Shown here: piece after piece, positions 8,986-43,389 of the stretch
Layout of the letters: each line of letters starts with the position of its first letter
How positions within the stretch are numbered: position 1 is the stretch's first letter
Source of the DNA: a virus
Length of the DNA stretch: 55,797 bases
Strand: one strand, 5' to 3'
Virus record (IMG/VR): IMGVR_UViG_3300032087_002848
Coordinates: 1-55,797 of that record
Made by a program: the position numbers and the translations under genes
The notes under the pieces: model-generated
What the model saw: the letters and a program-made list of their open reading frames with translations, nothing else
What the model was told of the DNA's origin: nothing
The model's database searches: none

Positions 8986-9429
8986 TTACGAGAGGTTGTT
9001 ATTTTGTAGATACAGAACTGTTACCGTTGCTGCACCAGCAGAAGCTGCCGTGCCTGTCTGATTGTAAGTAACTGTAACATTAACATCGGATGTACCGATA
9101 TCAATTAGATTACCGATTTGAGACACATCAGATGTAGCAAGAACACGTGCCTGTGCGCCAACCGCTAGTGCGTCTGCATACTGGTCAGCGGTTGAGCCAT
9201 CGCCAATGTCGAATGTGTTGGTTGTACCTGCATTAAATGCAGTCGTTACGTCTACGGTGATCTGGAAAATTTGGCTGTTTGCAGGAACAGTAGCAACAAC
9301 AGTTTCAGTGCCGTTTGCACCAAAAACTACGTTTGCGCTCTGCGCCATCAAAACAAAGCCCACGTTGGCAGATGCGCCTTCGCGGATAGACCCAGCCTTA
9401 ATAGGACCGGAAAAAGTTGTAGTAGCCAT
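8986..9429 (-). CDS. Putative head decoration/structural protein (147 aa)
   Basis: The first gene downstream of the capsid terminator. The sequence (MATTTFSGPIKAGSIREGAS) has the short N-terminal arm and beta-rich body typical of phage decoration-type proteins (motifs FDIGDGSTADQYADAL and VTVTYNQT). The leader includes a hairpin at 9455-9473 and an AGGAG Shine-Dalgarno. Function inferred from context: capsid decoration or minor structural protein. Confidence 0.7.
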   Translation of the reverse strand: MATTTFSGPIKAGSIREGASANVGFVLMAQSANVVFGANGTETVVATVPANSQIFQITVDVTTAFNAGTTNTFDIGDGSTADQYADALAVGAQARVLATSDVSQIGNLIDIGTSDVNVTVTYNQTGTAASAGAATVTVLYLQNNNLS

Positions 9430-9454
9430 TTTGTACTCCTGTCGTGGCTAGTGT

Positions 9455-9473
9455 CAGACGCACCATGCGTCTG
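9455..9473 (-). other. 5' leader hairpin
   Basis: An 8-bp perfect inverted repeat (cagacgca / tgcgtctg) with a 3-base loop in the leader of the 147-aa structural gene, between the upstream terminator and its Shine-Dalgarno. There is no T-run, so it is not a terminator. It could stabilise the mRNA 5' end. Confidence 0.5.
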
Positions 9474-9496
9474 TCAGGATAAAAAAAATATACAGT

Positions 9497-21394: not shown

Positions 21395-22840
21395 CTAGTA
21401 ATATGCCCGCACTTTAACAGAAGTCTCACCATCTTCCCAGTCATCTGTTGGAAGCTGTACAAAGTTACCCTGACGATAACGCATCAAGGCCTGTGTCATA
21501 CTATCAACCAAGTCGTCATGCTCCCCGTTTGGAAACGCCGCGACCTCTTCAATCATCTCATCCGCAAATACCGTGTCGGGGGCCCAAACCATGCCCGCTT
21601 CAAACAGAGGAGAAACAGAGTGTACTCGCGTTACTTTATCATTTCCCTTACTCGGGGTAAAGTTGACGACAGGTATGCCCATGTTCCGTAGTTCGTGGGT
21701 CAAGGGCAGTCCAGAGGCTTTCGCTTCCACAATTACTGTGTCGGGCTCCCAGTATTTATATTGATCCAAAGCCACCTGCTTCAACTCTGGAAAATCCCAA
21801 CGATCCTTCTTACTGTCCAAAAGTATGAGTCCCGGCGGGCCCCCTATCTCCTCTGGACGAAAAACACCCCACGTTGTTATCGCGCTAAAATCAGCCGTCT
21901 CGCGTTTACTGAACGCCGTGTCATAGCTCTGAATGACGTATTCAAGATTAGGTATGTTCTTCTTTTCCCAGCGCTGCCACCACTGGCGCGGTATAATCGC
22001 GTTCTCTTCGCCCGTCGGGTTCTGCTGATACTGCGCGTTCCATTTGCTGGGAGGTATAGATGCGCGGACCGCGGTCAGATCCTCAATGCTCCAGAACTCT
22101 GGCCAACACGGAGTGCCGTCATCAAAAATCGCAGGGAGTTCCACAACTTCCCACTGATCCGCTAGGGGGTCTTTAGCCATCGCCTTCAAAAGCTGGCCTG
22201 TCATGTCCTTTTCAGACCACCGGGTCTGTACCAGAACTATCGAGCCCCCCGGCTGGAGCCTCTGTCGGGGGCCCCCGGTGTACCAATCCCAAGCATCATC
22301 AAACCCGTTCGCTGACATAGCTGTTTGTTCAGAGTGCGGGTCATCAATAATTACCAAGTCACCACCACGACCCGCGAGGTTTGACCCAACTCCGACGGCA
22401 TAGTACATGCCGCCAGAAGAAGTGTCCCAGCGACCAGAAGCTTTACTATCCGCAGCCAGTTTAACATTTGGAAAGACCTCCTTGAACTCGTCGCTATCCA
22501 AAAGGTTTTTCGTTTTACGACCAAAGTTGACGGCTAGCTCCGTTGTGTGAGTAGCCTGAATGATCTTCATGCGCGGGTTTTTACCCATCATCCAAGCGGG
22601 AAACAAGAACGAAGCGAACTCTGACTTCGTATGACGCGGGGCCATGTTGATGATCAGGCGCTTTAAGTCGCCTTTTGCGACCCTTTCCAACTTTTCAGCA
22701 ATAATTTTGTGGTGTCGGCCCGCAATAAACTCCGGCCACATGGATTTTACAAACGTCAAAAAATCATTCTGACAAGCTTCATTCTTCTCGATTTGGGCAA
22801 GCCGTAAACGAAGCTTTAGTTCTTGATCAGAAACATCCAT
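21395..22840 (-). CDS. Terminase large subunit (481 aa)
   Basis: The N-terminal ATPase has a deviant Walker A (APRHTKS, residues 67-73) and Walker B (LVIIDDPH, with Asp166-Asp167). The C-terminal nuclease has SYDTAFSKRETADFS (Asp307), VIVEAKASG (Glu372) and HDDLVDSMTQ acids (about Asp442-Asp446). The length matches phage TerL. It is the first gene after the parS-containing region. It pumps DNA into the prohead and cuts it. Confidence 0.92.
   Translation of the reverse strand: MDVSDQELKLRLRLAQIEKNEACQNDFLTFVKSMWPEFIAGRHHKIIAEKLERVAKGDLKRLIINMAPRHTKSEFASFLFPAWMMGKNPRMKIIQATHTTELAVNFGRKTKNLLDSDEFKEVFPNVKLAADSKASGRWDTSSGGMYYAVGVGSNLAGRGGDLVIIDDPHSEQTAMSANGFDDAWDWYTGGPRQRLQPGGSIVLVQTRWSEKDMTGQLLKAMAKDPLADQWEVVELPAIFDDGTPCWPEFWSIEDLTAVRASIPPSKWNAQYQQNPTGEENAIIPRQWWQRWEKKNIPNLEYVIQSYDTAFSKRETADFSAITTWGVFRPEEIGGPPGLILLDSKKDRWDFPELKQVALDQYKYWEPDTVIVEAKASGLPLTHELRNMGIPVVNFTPSKGNDKVTRVHSVSPLFEAGMVWAPDTVFADEMIEEVAAFPNGEHDDLVDSMTQALMRYRQGNFVQLPTDDWEDGETSVKVRAYY
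22064..22076. repeat. GC-rich element copy in terminase gene
   Basis: A short copy of the scattered GC-rich element (gcggaccgcggtc), with a CCGCGG core and dyad symmetry, inside the coding sequence of the large terminase. Confidence 0.5.
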
Positions 22841-22931
22841 CGGGGGCCCCTAAATTGAAATAATATTTCAATAAATATGCCTAATTTTTAGTCAGTTAAC
22901 GATAATAAGCATTTTATCAAAAAATAAGCAA

Positions 22932-22947
22932 TGTTTCACGTGAAACA
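22932..22947. promoter_or_regulatory. parS: Perfect 16-bp parS (host ParB-binding) site
   Basis: A perfect 16-bp palindrome, TGTTTCACGTGAAACA, identical to the canonical bacterial chromosomal parS consensus. It lies 91 bp upstream of the large terminase start in non-coding DNA. Host ParB is known to load on such sites as a CTP-dependent clamp. No ParA or ParB gene was found in the window, so any use would rely on host proteins; that is inference. Confidence 0.85.
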
Positions 22948-23014
22948 ACCATATCATTTTTTGCAGTATTGTTTGTGAAAAACATGGCCCTTGCCCCCGC
23001 ACTCAACCGCTAGG

Positions 23015-23043
23015 GTCGATTTTCGTGGATTTTGTCGATTTTC
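23015..23043. repeat. Three direct repeats GTSGATTTT
   Basis: Three head-to-tail 9-10 bp repeats (gtcgattttc, gtggatttt, gtcgattttc) directly downstream of the parS region. Their spacing of about one helical turn suggests a protein-binding array or packaging site. The identity of the binding protein is unknown. Confidence 0.55.
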
Positions 23044-23086
23044 CCAACATTTCCGGCCATTTGACCCGATAGCCCGGGGCCCCTAG

Positions 23087-23110
23087 CCATGGTCCGCGGA
23101 CCGCGGTCCG
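23087..23110. repeat. GC-rich overlapping palindromes
   Basis: Two overlapping perfect 12-bp palindromes, GGTCCGCGGACC (23091-23102) and GGACCGCGGTCC (23098-23109). This is the clearest copy of the scattered GC-rich element. Confidence 0.75.
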
Positions 23111-23125
23111 GTGCCCGGGTTTTTA

Positions 23126-23143
23126 GATTCCGATTCCGATTCC
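23126..23143. repeat. GATTCC triplet tandem repeat
   Basis: Three tandem 6-bp units (gattcc) in the non-coding region between the two GC-rich elements. Simple repeat, no further function visible. Confidence 0.6.
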
Positions 23144-23153
23144 AATCGCCCGG

Positions 23154-23216
23154 TGCTCACGGCTCACGGGCCGGGGCTCATGATTGATCGCCCGGCAACC
23201 ACGGATCACGGGCCGG
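23154..23216. repeat. GC-rich element cluster (CACGG units)
   Basis: Repeated cacgg-type units: gctcacggctcacgggcc at one end and accacggatcacgggccgg at the other, with a spacer. The same units occur at 18224-18255, 27841-27858 and 28575-28589. Confidence 0.65.
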
Positions 23217-23281
23217 TGAAAATGTTGCGCGGTAAGTTTGAGAAGGTGCGGGGGCGGCGGGGCGGGGCAGCATTAACTGCT

Positions 23282-23297
23282 TTTAAATCGATTTAAA
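23282..23297. repeat. AT-rich 16-bp palindrome
   Basis: A perfect palindrome TTTAAATCGATTTAAA in the non-coding region. It could be an operator or a duplex-unwinding site; no binding protein is known. Confidence 0.55.
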
Positions 23298-23315
23298 TGG
23301 GGTCTAGGCGCGCAT

Positions 23316-23348
23316 AAAAAAAACCCGCTAGGTAGTTAGCCTAGCGGG
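23316..23348 (-). terminator. Rho-independent terminator after 76-aa gene
   Basis: On the minus strand a 9-bp perfect stem (CCCGCTAGG / CCTAGCGGG) is followed by a run of eight T. It lies 24 bp after the stop of the 76-aa gene and separates it from the parS region. Confidence 0.85.
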
Positions 23349-23371
23349 CGAGATAAGCGATCAGTGACGCG

Positions 23372-26560: not shown

Positions 26561-26576
26561 ATTATGCGATTATGTG
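26561..26576 (-). promoter_or_regulatory. Promoter/operator-like motif CACATAATCGCATAAT
   Basis: The minus-strand motif CACATAATCGCATAAT, preceded by ATATGCCC, closely matches the sequence at 40313-40334 upstream of the SNF2 gene. It lies 37 bp upstream of the 92-aa gene start. It contains a CATAAT -10 box; the -35 match is weak. Confidence 0.45.
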
Positions 26577-26998
26577 GGGCATATCAAGTCAAAAATAACA
26601 TCCCATTGAAATGGTTGTTCACATCGAAAAACAGGCTCGACTGCTTCCAGCCCATCCATTTTTAAATCAACGGCAGCGTTTGCAGGATACAAGAAGCACT
26701 CCGCAGGCTCTGTCGGCTTGGTTTGTTTTTTAATCAGTATCCAACAACTGGCGTGACCATGCCTTGAGAGCCACGCTACTTGAGAAGGCTGCAAAGTCAC
26801 TGCGTTGCCCGTCAGGTATTTCAATTCGACAAAATGAAAGTTTCCGTCTTCATCGCAGATCATTAGATCGGGAATACCTGCACCCACCCAGTTCTCAATC
26901 CGCGTCAGCAATAATTTCCTCTTGGTCCGCTGCGCTGCTTCCTTCACCTGTTTGTAAAAGCCTGCTTCGCGCCTTGTTGCGATTGGAGGTGTTTTCAT
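26570..26998 (-). CDS. VRR-NUC PD-(D/E)XK nuclease (142 aa)
   Basis: The nuclease core has VGAGIPDLMICDEDGNFHFVELKYL (Asp44, Glu58, Lys60), typical of the VRR-NUC family. The start at 26998 (MKTPPIATRREAG) is preferred over an earlier ATG that overlaps TerS by 143 bp; the overlap remains 104 bp. VRR-NUC proteins are structure-selective nucleases in phage and repair contexts. The role here could be recombination, repair or packaging. Confidence 0.78.
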   Translation of the reverse strand: MKTPPIATRREAGFYKQVKEAAQRTKRKLLLTRIENWVGAGIPDLMICDEDGNFHFVELKYLTGNAVTLQPSQVAWLSRHGHASCWILIKKQTKPTEPAECFLYPANAAVDLKMDGLEAVEPVFRCEQPFQWDVIFDLICPT

Positions 26999-27518
26999 CT
27001 TTTTCTTCGGGGGTGATGTCGATTGTAATCGGGGCATAGCTGTTCTTTATCTCTTCTAGAGCTTTCAAAACGTCTTCTTTCGACATGCTATCGATAGAGC
27101 CGTGTCGGATTTCTGATTTGCTGACATAGATGTCGCCTTGAGCTTGGCCTCGCCTATACTCTGCCTGAACAGCGGCAGAATACGCCCCGTTCTCCAAAGC
27201 TATATCACGGATCAATTGCAGATCGCGCATGTGGCGTTGGTAAGTAACCCCGTACTTCTCATCGAGCTCCCGCCTGTAGGCTTGGATAGCGGCCACGACG
27301 TGAGGGGACATATGAGGATTGGTTAGCTCATACGCCCTAGAGTGCGCCGACCCCGCGGCATAGCCCGCGTTGATCGCGGCTTCTCTCAGGGTTATCTGCC
27401 CGTCTTTAGAGACAAGCTCTTTTACAAAAAGCTCCTGTTTCCGGGTCAGAGGTTGGGTTGCGGTTATCTTCTTTCTCCCGCGCGTTTCGCTCTTCGGGAG
27501 TGCTTTTGCCCGTGGCAT
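26895..27518 (-). CDS. Terminase small subunit (207 aa)
   Basis: Residues about 22-70 (PLTRKQELFVKELVSKDGQ, then TLREAAINAGYAAGSAHSRAYELTNP) are the helix-turn-helix of the Terminase_2 small-subunit family, followed by a helical oligomerisation region. It recognises phage DNA for packaging. It is unusually separated from the large subunit by 4 kb of accessory genes. The start is supported by GGAGCAAATGT. Confidence 0.85.
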   Translation of the reverse strand: MPRAKALPKSETRGRKKITATQPLTRKQELFVKELVSKDGQITLREAAINAGYAAGSAHSRAYELTNPHMSPHVVAAIQAYRRELDEKYGVTYQRHMRDLQLIRDIALENGAYSAAVQAEYRRGQAQGDIYVSKSEIRHGSIDSMSKEDVLKALEEIKNSYAPITIDITPEEKDENTSNRNKARSRLLQTGEGSSAADQEEIIADAD

Positions 27519-28777: not shown

Positions 28778-29086
28778 TTAGCTCCGGCCCGTGGTCCGCG
28801 CAGTCAGATCGATGACCCGTTGGAAGGAGTCGATGTCTTTTATCTTTTTGAGGGATCGAAGGACGGTGGTGTGGTTGCATCCGACGAATCGTGCGATTTG
28901 GGCTGCGGAGTAACCCATGTGTTTATGCATGACGCCCATGACGACCCACCGGGCGTGGACGGCTTCGCGTCGTTCCCGGCGGTTTTTGCGTTGGACGATA
29001 TCTTCGAGGGGCACGTCATAATATTTGGACACGAAATTAAATATGATTTCGCGCCGTTCGGCGGGGAATAGGTAGGTATCTTCCAT
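28778..29086 (-). CDS. DnaA domain IV-like DNA-binding protein (102 aa)
   Basis: The start at 29086 (MEDTYLFPAERREI) overlaps the upstream stop as TGATG. The segment REAVHARWVVMGVMHKHMGYSAAQIARFVGCNHTTVLRSLKKI carries the DnaA domain IV helix-turn-helix signature (HTTV at residues 72-75). The AAA+ ATPase domains of DnaA are absent. It could bind the adjacent DnaA box or compete with host DnaA. The function is inferred. Confidence 0.8.
   Translation of the reverse strand: MEDTYLFPAERREIIFNFVSKYYDVPLEDIVQRKNRRERREAVHARWVVMGVMHKHMGYSAAQIARFVGCNHTTVLRSLKKIKDIDSFQRVIDLTARTTGRS
28786..28801. repeat. GC-rich element copy in DnaA-like gene
   Basis: The sequence ggcccgtggtccgcgc lies in the last codons of the DnaA domain IV-like gene. 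Confidence 0.5.
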
Positions 29087-35422: not shown

Positions 35423-36936
35423 ATCCAGTAACTCCTCATTGTGTCATCTGGTTCAACTAAGTAGAGATTTTTCTTGGTCCGGGTGACCCCTACGTAAAAC
35501 ACCCGGTGCAAGTCGTCAGGAGCCGTCTCAGAGGCCTTTTGAGCCGCTGGTGATAGATCGGTATACAAGACGACGTTGTCGGCTTCCCCGCCCTTAGATC
35601 CGTGAATCGTGGACAGTGCTATGCGGGGGATTGCGTTAAACTTTTCCCCGCGTCGTAAGAGGGCCGTGATGTACGCTCTTTCGCCGCTGGGAAGTTTATC
35701 CATTGCCTCATGCCATATCATTTCATCCGTGGCTAAGAGACCGTGATCTTTTTGCAACACATCGAGGGTGACAGTGTCATCATCATCGAGAGTAGGAAGC
35801 TTTTTAAAGCCCCGCTTGACGCGATCATTGACAGACATATAACTGTAAATGGCTCGTGCGGCCTCGCCCGTGATGCTTCTACCTTTTCTCAGTTGCTCCC
35901 AACCGTTGATGGCCTCGCTCAACTTCTCCGAGATAGACCGTCTTCCGTTACGACTGTACAGGTAGCCCCGGCTCTTCAGGTCCTGTGTGGCGGCATCTAG
36001 AAAATATCCGGCTTGAGCTAGCACGAGCCACGATCCTTCAGAGAAATCTATATAGCTTGTACTAGGTATCCGTTGGACGCTGCCCGGATCTTTGCGGGGC
36101 AGATAGGTCTTTGGTACGCGGCGCGCGATGCGCTTTGCGATGCCTTCGGCTAGCGGGTGTACTGTAGCTGGTACGCGGTAGGATTGCTCTAGCACCTCGT
36201 ATCCACCATTGAGACCTATGAAATGCTCTACGTCTGCTCCGGCCCATCTATAGATAGCTTGATCGTCGTCGCCCGCGCAGTAGATGCGGTCAGAGTGCTG
36301 CTCTAGTACGTGGGCCACGTCCCATTGTAGGGGCGACAGGTCCTGTGCTTCGTCTATGAAGGTAATTGCTAGCCGTGGGCAGAAGTCTGCACCGTCACGC
36401 ACGAAAACTTCCAGCATGTCGGTGAAATCATACAGGTTAAACCTGTTCTTATATTCATTCATACTGTCGGAGACATATTTAATCGTGCTCCACGGTATGT
36501 TCATGTTGCTGTCGTTGTACTGTTGACGCAGGTCCACCTTGCGAAGACGTGCTAAGTTAATTAGCCCGATAATGGGGTTGTTGTTTTTGTTTAAGTCAAA
36601 AGCGTCTTCAGTGCTGGTGTCGGTAACCAGATCGTATCCAAGCGCATAACCCAGCTCTTTATAGTGTTCCGACTGCATAATCTGTTCTTGCCGGATGCCA
36701 CTTAGCTTGAGAGCAAAACTGTGAAGGGTCCTAAACCAAGGCAGTTGCGTTTTTTCTAGATTAAATCGCTGGCAAGCCCTGTCTATAGCCTCGTTTGCTG
36801 CCTGTCTGGTAAAGGCGAAGTACCCGATGTGAGCGGGATTAACACCTGCCGTGAGGGCCTCATCTACTTTGTTAAGCAGCGCGGTGGTCTTACCCGTTCC
36901 GGGTGGACCGTATATGCGGAATATCTTAGTATCCAT
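35419..36936 (-). CDS. UvrD/PcrA-like SF1 helicase (505 aa)
   Basis: The start at 36936 (MDTKIFRIYGPPGTGKTTAL) is chosen because it lies beside the Walker A motif. SF1A motifs: GPPGTGKT (residues 10-17), FIDEAQDLSPLQ, GDDDQAIYRWAGA, STIHGSKGGEADNV and VGVTRTKKNLYL. It probably unwinds DNA during replication or repair. A DnaB-type helicase was not found in the window. Confidence 0.9.
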   Translation of the reverse strand: MDTKIFRIYGPPGTGKTTALLNKVDEALTAGVNPAHIGYFAFTRQAANEAIDRACQRFNLEKTQLPWFRTLHSFALKLSGIRQEQIMQSEHYKELGYALGYDLVTDTSTEDAFDLNKNNNPIIGLINLARLRKVDLRQQYNDSNMNIPWSTIKYVSDSMNEYKNRFNLYDFTDMLEVFVRDGADFCPRLAITFIDEAQDLSPLQWDVAHVLEQHSDRIYCAGDDDQAIYRWAGADVEHFIGLNGGYEVLEQSYRVPATVHPLAEGIAKRIARRVPKTYLPRKDPGSVQRIPSTSYIDFSEGSWLVLAQAGYFLDAATQDLKSRGYLYSRNGRRSISEKLSEAINGWEQLRKGRSITGEAARAIYSYMSVNDRVKRGFKKLPTLDDDDTVTLDVLQKDHGLLATDEMIWHEAMDKLPSGERAYITALLRRGEKFNAIPRIALSTIHGSKGGEADNVVLYTDLSPAAQKASETAPDDLHRVFYVGVTRTKKNLYLVEPDDTMRSYWI

Positions 36937-37273
36937 CAGGTAACTCAAAACCATGTTTGCCTAACTTTGTTTTAATCTCCTGCAAACGGACCTTTCCTAA
37001 GTTTGGTATTCGGCGTAGATCGTTTGTTCTGGCGTATTCAACAAACTCCGCTAAAAACATTTTTGTAAGATTTTCGTTACGTAGGCAGTTACCTGTCCCT
37101 CGAGTCCAATGAATGTTGCGGATCACGACAGGCATAGCCACCGTATCTACTATTTGTCGTACTCGCTCACGACTAATACCGTGTTTATTTGCGATTGCTT
37201 GCAGAGTACGCTGTTCAAACACACGCTCCCGCCAGATTTGATGATCTCTTGGAACAAAAGCCATAATCGACAT
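36926..37273 (-). CDS. Sigma region 4-like HTH fused to alpha-CTD-like domain (115 aa)
   Basis: Residues about 14-43 (ERVFEQRTLQAIANKHGIS followed by RERVRQIV) are the sigma70 region 4.2 helix-turn-helix signature. Residues about 65-110 (LAEFVEYARTNDLRRIPNLGKVRLQEIKTKLGKHGFELP) follow the alpha-subunit C-terminal domain pattern, with NLGK-x(2)-LQEIK. No other sigma or alpha regions are present. GGAG lies 9 bp before the ATG. It could bind promoter DNA and modulate host RNA polymerase; this is inference. Confidence 0.72.
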   Translation of the reverse strand: MSIMAFVPRDHQIWRERVFEQRTLQAIANKHGISRERVRQIVDTVAMPVVIRNIHWTRGTGNCLRNENLTKMFLAEFVEYARTNDLRRIPNLGKVRLQEIKTKLGKHGFELPDGY

Positions 37274-42209: not shown

Positions 42210-42944
42210 TTACCTCCGTAACAGGCTACCGACGCCGCCAAGGGGTATCGAGTAACCCATTGTAGGGCCAGCCAGCCCGACGCCTGCCCCGAACGTGCCT
42301 CCAAATGCGGGCGTTGTAAAACCAATTCCACCTACCGCAGGAACCGCTCCGACGCTGAACGGAACCTCAGCTATCTCGAAAGAGGGTTTATTAAAAGAAG
42401 TAGTGGCTTGTTCTCTAGCCGCTTGTGGGGTTACCGGAACAGGTGAAGGCGCTAACGAAGGCGCTAATGCACGATCAATTGCGTTTGCTGATAAAAAACT
42501 AAGATCTTGTCTACCAGATACGGCTGGCATCAGTCCGGGTTGTTGTTGTGCTTGATTTTTTGCAGCGATTTCTTCTGCGACAGTAAAAGGATTATAACTT
42601 GGTGTGGACGCAACAGGAGCACGGTTCCCTATCTCCGCAAAAGTATCTACCGGAGAAATCGCGCTTATTTCCGCAAAAGTATCAACAGAGGGGGTCGCGG
42701 CTGCTGGAGCCGCAGAATAGCTGTCTACACTACCAAACATGTCGGAGTAGCTATTATCAGGAGCCGCAGAATAGCTATCTGCGCTACCAAACATGTCGGA
42801 GTAGCTATTATCAGGAGAACCGCCGCCACCGCCGTCGTCTCCGCCGTCACCACCAAAAAGACCGAACTTGCTTTCAAATTCGTCTACGTGCTCAAAATCA
42901 TTATGTAGCCCGTCTGACCATCTCTTCTTAAACAGCACAGGCAT
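42210..42944 (-). CDS. Low-complexity virion-region protein with repeats (244 aa)
   Basis: Contains two copies of an 18-residue repeat (NSYSDMFGSxDSYSAAPD) and two copies of a VDTFAEI motif, each encoded by long DNA repeats (42721-42815). The N-terminus is short and basic with an acidic/Gly stretch. The C-terminus ends PTMGYSIPLGGVGSLLRR. Probably an internal or minor virion protein. Low sequence complexity; function not known. Confidence 0.62.
   Translation of the reverse strand: MPVLFKKRWSDGLHNDFEHVDEFESKFGLFGGDGGDDGGGGGSPDNSYSDMFGSADSYSAAPDNSYSDMFGSVDSYSAAPAAATPSVDTFAEISAISPVDTFAEIGNRAPVASTPSYNPFTVAEEIAAKNQAQQQPGLMPAVSGRQDLSFLSANAIDRALAPSLAPSPVPVTPQAAREQATTSFNKPSFEIAEVPFSVGAVPAVGGIGFTTPAFGGTFGAGVGLAGPTMGYSIPLGGVGSLLRR
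42721..42815. repeat. Direct repeat encoding NSYSDMFGS units
   Basis: A direct repeat of about 54 bp inside the 244-aa gene, nearly identical in both copies (shared core aacatgtcggagtagctatt). Coding repeats, in frame. Confidence 0.7.
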
Positions 42945-43389
42945 ATCTCCTTATATCAAGCTCGGACTGTACGCCCGTGGCATACCCAACACGCTTTCCC
43001 TTCATCTGACGGATAAAATAAGCCCCGTCATAAGGATAGGTTTCAAGATAGCGCTCCGTCAGTTTCTTTTGTGTAAATCGTGCCACTTCATAAGCGTTCT
43101 GATATGGCGCAATGAAATCTATCACATACATCGTACCATCTCTTGGTCCATTACTCCAGATCGATGCTGGTAGTTTACTAGAACCATCCCTGTATCCCTG
43201 CGCCACATCTTTAGGGAGGAAGGCGTGTGTAAAAAGACCCACGGGCCGTGGTGCGTAGGGCGCGGGCTTATACAGGATGTCCATCTTCCCGTGTGCGATA
43301 GCCGGTACAATTAAGCGATCAAGATCGTGAATATACCAATCACGGTGAAATTCAGATTTCAGCATCAATTTTATGGCGTCGGAGATCAT
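42928..43389 (-). CDS. HlyC-like toxin-activating acyltransferase homologue (153 aa)
   Basis: The sequence aligns with HlyC-type acyltransferases: KSEFHRDWYI (His15, cf. SSPLHRNW), RLIVPAIAHGKMDILY (cf. LPAIRANQ), PVGLFTHAFL (cf. SWANLS), PASIWSNG and MYVIDFIAPYQN (Asp91; cf. FIDWIAPFGD). In HlyC the His and Asp are needed to transfer fatty acyl groups to lysines of an RTX toxin. It lies in the virion gene cluster and overlaps the 1271-aa protein stop by 4 bp. No RTX toxin is seen. It may acylate a virion protein. Confidence 0.72.
   Translation of the reverse strand: MISDAIKLMLKSEFHRDWYIHDLDRLIVPAIAHGKMDILYKPAPYAPRPVGLFTHAFLPKDVAQGYRDGSSKLPASIWSNGPRDGTMYVIDFIAPYQNAYEVARFTQKKLTERYLETYPYDGAYFIRQMKGKRVGYATGVQSELDIRRYACAV

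Follow-up and report, generated by a model that had tools for sequence, protein, structure and literature searches.

The window analysed here is one IMG/VR virus record, IMGVR_UViG_3300032087_002848, of 55,797 bases. Upstream of its terL gene it carries a perfect palindrome, TGTTTCACGTGAAACA, identical to the consensus of the chromosomal partition site parS (Livny et al. 2007, cited in PMC10197239). The parS site lies within a non-coding stretch of about 480 bp, with 91 bp between its end and the terL start codon (ATG), and is flanked by an intrinsic-terminator-like hairpin on one side and by terL on the other (Table 1). It was the sole match to TGTTTCACGTGAAACA with three or fewer mismatches in the whole window, and Markov models of the window (orders 1 to 3) put the number of exact copies expected by chance at 0.8-1.6e-5. 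Six-frame searches of the window for ParB_N, HTH_ParB and ParA (AAA_31) gave no match at a cut-off as loose as E<=10; in control genomes the domains were detected by this search. Scans of the window proteins with pfam and PHROG, which did not cover every open reading frame (ORF), returned no ParA or ParB, and the proteins scanned did not include an integrase. An earlier, sequence-only reading of this DNA had described an exact canonical parS in non-coding DNA, 91 bp upstream of a terminase gene, improbable by chance in 56 kb and without parAB genes; the palindrome and its coordinates, the ORF list, the Markov expectation and the blank six-frame search all agreed with that description.

Table 1. 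Features of the parS locus and other elements of the 55,797-base window
Feature	Coordinates	Strand	Basis or remark
parS, perfect 16-bp palindrome TGTTTCACGTGAAACA	22932..22947	.	exact string match
Non-coding control region holding parS, head of terminase/late operon	22841..23322	-	ORF list and upstream comparison
Intrinsic-terminator-like hairpin, closes preceding gene block	23323..23349	-	
terL, large terminase subunit; next gene downstream of parS	21395..22840	-	
Conserved GTTAACTG...GCATATTT element	22873..22900	-	upstream comparison of relatives
AGGGGCCCC motif, first copy	22843..22851	-	right before terL start
AGGGGCCCC motif, second copy	23076..23084	-	about 230 bp upstream of the first
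terS-like gene	26895..27518	-	Terminase_2
VRR-NUC-like nuclease gene	26570..27037	-	travels with terS
102-aa protein	28778..29086	-	DnaA domain IV (Bac_DnaA_C, E 6e-13)
115-aa protein	36926..37273	-	sigma-70 region 4 plus RNA polymerase alpha-CTD-like part
Mu-gpT-DE RNA	9427..9479	-	Rfam RF03012, 68.8 bits
HlyC-type acyltransferase domain	42928..43389	-	PF02794, E 2e-13

The site was conserved among relatives of the phage. Most of 80 close relatives by terL (86-100% identity) carried the 16-mer without mismatch ahead of terL, at a distance of 31-330 bp, or of 1,055-1,058 bp in one subgroup. The refuting outcome named by the sequence-only reading, a site absent or degenerate in every close relative, was thus clearly not observed. 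Of 204 related terL loci, 72 had an exact parS in the upstream region, and 76 had one with at most one mismatch. When 200 shuffled palindromes with the same half-site letters were searched in these regions, no exact match was obtained, and no more than two loci matched with two mismatches. The most frequent 12-bp palindrome in the same regions was TTTCACGTGAAA, at 76 loci compared to five for the runner-up. Among 26 non-redundant carriers (<92% terL identity, that is, more than 8% apart in terL), the parS columns held 1.45-1.92 bits and the flanking columns mostly less than 0.4 bits, the next best conserved columns being the immediate neighbours of the site (A before, T after); as the carriers were picked for having the site, this contrast has to be weighed together with the shuffled control. 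The variants observed were symmetric and parS-like (TGTTCCACGTGGAACA), and in L192-L194, L196 and L263 TGTTCCACGTGGAACA formed a tandem pair, 24 bp from the first site. A conserved unit between diverging flanks, as expected for a parS of chromosomal type, was thus observed in the clade, and the parS of the window is real and in all likelihood functional.

In the core clade, the control region consists, in this order, of CATGTTTCTCACAAATAATTATGTGAAAAATGATATG or a variant of this conserved element, parS, GTTAACTG...GCATATTT, AGGGGCCCC and the start codon. The GTTAACTG...GCATATTT element, which a sigma-70 consensus scan did not detect, is a possible late promoter. In 51 of the 58 loci that have it, GTTAACTG follows parS at a distance of 31-33 bp; in the rest the distance is 9 or 76 bp. 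The AGGGGCCCC motif varied little across the clade, and its conservation seems to exceed that of a mere Shine-Dalgarno sequence. The gene that follows parS was not always terL: in L167 and L173 it was a homologue of the terS-like gene, followed by VRR-NUC and terL, and in L152 and L190 it was a small gene. Because the first gene varies, it is the start of the terminase/late operon, and not terL as such, to which parS is tied.

This arrangement is relevant for a reading in which parS acts as a copy-number timer and not as a centromere. ParB loaded at parS would spread over the late control region and repress it, and the operon would open when the rising number of phage copies dilutes the limited ParB of the host. 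The place of the site at the operon head, irrespective of the first gene, and its spacing to the GTTAACTG element are in favour of such a switch, as is the repression of parS-adjacent promoters by ParB reported for Pseudomonas aeruginosa (PMC5521831). In other subclades, however, parS was located in the 5' leader (L199, L214 and L276) or behind terL (L069 and L290), in cultured phages it adjoined other, mostly small genes, and the promoter-like element was retained in close relatives without parS. As an explanation on its own the timer is possible, but it is rather doubtful. A strict position-independence of parS was also considered and was dropped, as the core-clade site stays at the late-operon head.

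In relatives L144, L156, L162, L165 and L177, with 89-92% terL identity, both flanks were kept and the parS block was gone; as these close relatives lack exactly this block, parS is an accessory module, present in some members and missing from others. On a terL tree (n=128), parS changed state at least 16 times, at least 12 of them within the near clade; these counts are minima, based on flanks of limited length. A parS-like site was also found inside or at the end of VRR-NUC-like homologues in some relatives (HTVC027P, L199 and L200).

The occurrence of the 16-mer was then not restricted to this clade. An exact scan of IMG/VR found it in at least 120 contigs, whereas two control palindromes matched in composition gave 3 and 0 over the whole collection. 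Among the matches listed, the 120 carrier stretches contained one ParB-like protein, no ParA and no rsmG, and HTH_ParB was not found over the full length of 30 long carriers. At least 42% of 146 sites, again among the matches listed, were non-coding, compared to 8.6% of random positions. A site that arose by chance, or that was carried along in host DNA from the rsmG/parAB neighbourhood, might be suggested by the few carriers in which it lies inside a reading frame (HTVC027P and several loci), but it is difficult to reconcile with the roughly 1e-5 copies expected per window, with the excess of non-coding sites and with the lack of rsmG and ParA in the listed carriers, and is extremely improbable. 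Chance was rejected for the clade by the conservation against diverging flanks and by the shuffled and control palindromes, and a carried-over rsmG/parAB fragment was rejected as neither rsmG nor ParA was near the sites of the listed carriers. Among 82 nearest outward-facing genes of other carriers, taken from stretches of limited length and with related phages recurring, terL was the commonest class, with at least 7 cases; a wider association of parS with the terminase is only a tendency. A second phage group (L016, L043, L052 and L074) carried 2-5 exact parS close to a divergently oriented terL, in a span of about 1.3 kb, with up to five sites in single stretches (L016 and L043).

A tandem-parS query of INPHARED matched 213 phage records, compared to none for the control query. 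The matches included phages of Microbacterium, Listeria, Gordonia, Lactobacillus, Arthrobacter and Bacillus, together with Ruegeria phage V10, Stenotrophomonas phage BUCT627, gokushoviruses and Spiroplasma phage 4. Judging by the taxon summary, made without a full denominator, phages whose hosts possess ParB seem to predominate among the 213 records, and no enterobacterial phage was present in 60 sampled rows. Of plasmid records, 24 of 72,556 were matched by the same query, some of them chromosome-sized. Eleven cultured or complete phages were inspected, and each carried one to four sites (with at most one mismatch), often between genes; none of the 11 had HTH_ParB above the cut-off. Bacillus phage B103, of the phi29 type, carried one exact parS plus one single-mismatch site. 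Exact parS was also present on single-stranded DNA (ssDNA) phages of 4-6 kb, namely L370 (Spiroplasma phage 4) and Microviridae records. Ruegeria phage vB_RpoS-V10 (L364, 147 kb) carried exact parS at 841, 142597 and 144884, near both genome ends, and is a cultured alphaproteobacterial phage suited to tests.

The palindrome could in principle be the operator of a phage-encoded regulator, its identity to parS being accidental. It adjoins a possible promoter, and the window encodes small candidate regulators, namely a 45-aa ribbon-helix-helix-like protein, a DnaA-domain-IV protein and a sigma-region-4-like protein. The full 16-mer, however, recurs in unrelated phages, including microviruses, that have no common regulator, and the control palindromes do not recur in this way, which makes an operator very unlikely. 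The phage's DnaA-type protein has the domain that binds DnaA boxes but not the ATPase, and the sigma-region-4 protein may be a transcription-appropriation factor. The window also contains a Mu-gpT-DE RNA amid head genes and an HlyC-type acyltransferase domain (Table 1).

With regard to the host, the nearest isolates or complete genomes by terL identity were 023Pt_psg01 (62.7%), HTVC027P (61.5%), DSL-LC04 (57.4%) and HTVC023P (53.9%), of which HTVC027P and HTVC023P are SAR11 phages and DSL-LC04 is a lake phage. The G+C content of the window was 48%, compared to about 35% in SAR11 phages. The titles of metagenome-assembled genomes (MAGs) holding related contigs disagreed (Verrucomicrobia, Rhodospirillales, Maricaulis and archaea); as these titles conflict, the phage contigs were considered mis-binned, the titles were not used for host prediction, and host inference relied solely on single-cell genomes and isolates. 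A SAR11 single-cell genome with a phage contig of the window's family carried the identical 16-mer inside rsmG, adjoining parA. On the SAR11 host side the exact 16-mer was present in 16 of 41 family genomes, for which completeness was not stated. ParB of the related genomes was canonical, with a ParA-binding N-terminus, a GERRWR box and a helix-turn-helix. The sequence-only reading had assumed an alphaproteobacterial ParB. SAR11 and other alphaproteobacterial genomes do hold a canonical ParB together with the identical parS, and a cognate ParB would be at hand if the host of the window's phage belonged to this group.

Because the site is kept in relatives and recurs in many unrelated phages, we consider recruitment of host ParB very likely; phages probably borrow this segregation protein through a cis-acting parS. 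On the sequence evidence, recruitment of host ParB is the sole plausible common factor over such diverse phages and hosts. ParB is known to load at parS and then to spread as a cytidine triphosphate (CTP) clamp (PMC8367383, PMC12704722), and in an engineered lambda-parS reporter ParB loaded on injected phage DNA bearing parS (PMC13190303). We infer binding of ParB at the phage site, and its consequences, as follows. Host ParB, a CTP-dependent DNA clamp, would load on the phage palindrome and slide onto the adjacent DNA, and the ParB-coated genome would be handled like the segregating origin region of the host, with ParA and SMC condensin contact. The phage DNA might thereby be kept, positioned or ordered in the cell, chiefly in a slow or stalled infection of a starved host. 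That the window's phage has borrowed a working parS, at which host ParB loads and through which the coated genome joins host segregation, is the explanation towards which we lean. The proposal of the sequence-only reading that the phage may recruit host ParB was thus supported, by conservation and by enrichment in phages without ParB; the purpose it gave stays at the level of inference.

Several observations weigh against this explanation, or against parts of it. Two relatives of 56-58 kb with 86% identical terL (G050 and G051) lacked the site in the whole genome, so that parS is not essential. HTVC027P, the nearest cultured relative with a site, had a 15/16 match 4 kb upstream, inside an unannotated VRR-NUC-like frame ('AFHVKHPNN'), and owing to this location the match may be a coding coincidence. 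HTVC027P is also obligately lytic (PMC12753301), which makes a classical partition, from mother to daughter cells, less plausible. The fixed position at the start of the late operon is as much in favour of regulation as of partition, and within this clade it favours the timer; the varied genome positions of the site in other phages favour a general effect on DNA placement. We put the chances that partition or condensin access is the purpose at about even. Owing to the position of parS ahead of the terminase genes, ParB that spreads from it may also repress the late operon until the protein is diluted by the many phage genomes that replication produces, and such a hold-down is the leading sub-variant of ParB recruitment for the window's clade.

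ParB borrowed in trans has precedents, and the idea is not wholly new. Spo0J (ParB) is reported to direct the phi29 genome into the spore (PMC9437464, citing Meijer et al. 2005). The phage phi29 resembles the window in being a virulent phage that uses a host segregation protein and has no ParB of its own, and the window likewise has the site and lacks a phage ParB; phi29, however, gets trapped in spores, whereas the present site is tied to the late-operon head. SAR11-type marine hosts are non-sporulating. SGI1 is a mobile element without a matching ParB that recruits the ParB of another replicon, through parS-like copies of IncC plasmid sites, for its own stability (PMC10954446), but a plasmid parABS and an integrative element are involved there, compared to a chromosomal ParABS and a phage here. 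The same logic, applied to SGI1 and the IncC parS against the helper plasmid (PMC10954446), might point to a decoy, whereby multiplying phage parS copies would strip ParB from the host origin and halt segregation or division. A single site would indeed be multiplied by the phage copy number, but most carriers in this analysis have one site and no arrays, and single-cycle killers profit little from blocked segregation; a decoy is unlikely. Phage-plasmids (P1, N15 and cyanophage Mic1, PMC7156551) also bear a partition site on phage DNA, but they encode their own ParA and ParB besides parS, and neither gene is present in the window. The site is identical in sequence to chromosomal parS, which SAR11 chromosomes bear beside parA, but here it lies on a 56-kb virus, far from parAB or a chromosomal replication origin. 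In the literature searched, with partial coverage, no report was found of the site of this marine clade or of a wide occurrence of exact parS in phages without ParB.

Recruitment of host ParB would extend well beyond the window, and it seems slightly favoured that parS mimicry is widespread and repeatedly gained, with unrelated phages, tailed and ssDNA, virulent and temperate, joining the host ParB-ParA-SMC system, and with parS as a movable module, maybe a ParB-dilution timer, in the marine podovirus-like clade. A centromere is not an expected need of lytic phages. If host ParB does load on these sites, the chromosome-segregation machinery would be a general host factor in phage infection, and phages engaging ParB-SMC could be recognised by parS as a simple mark in their sequence. 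Cultured systems with parS are at hand in Bacillus phage B103, Gordonia phages and Ruegeria phage V10. The finding would also have a bearing on the positioning of phage DNA and the timing of late genes in SAR11-like marine hosts.
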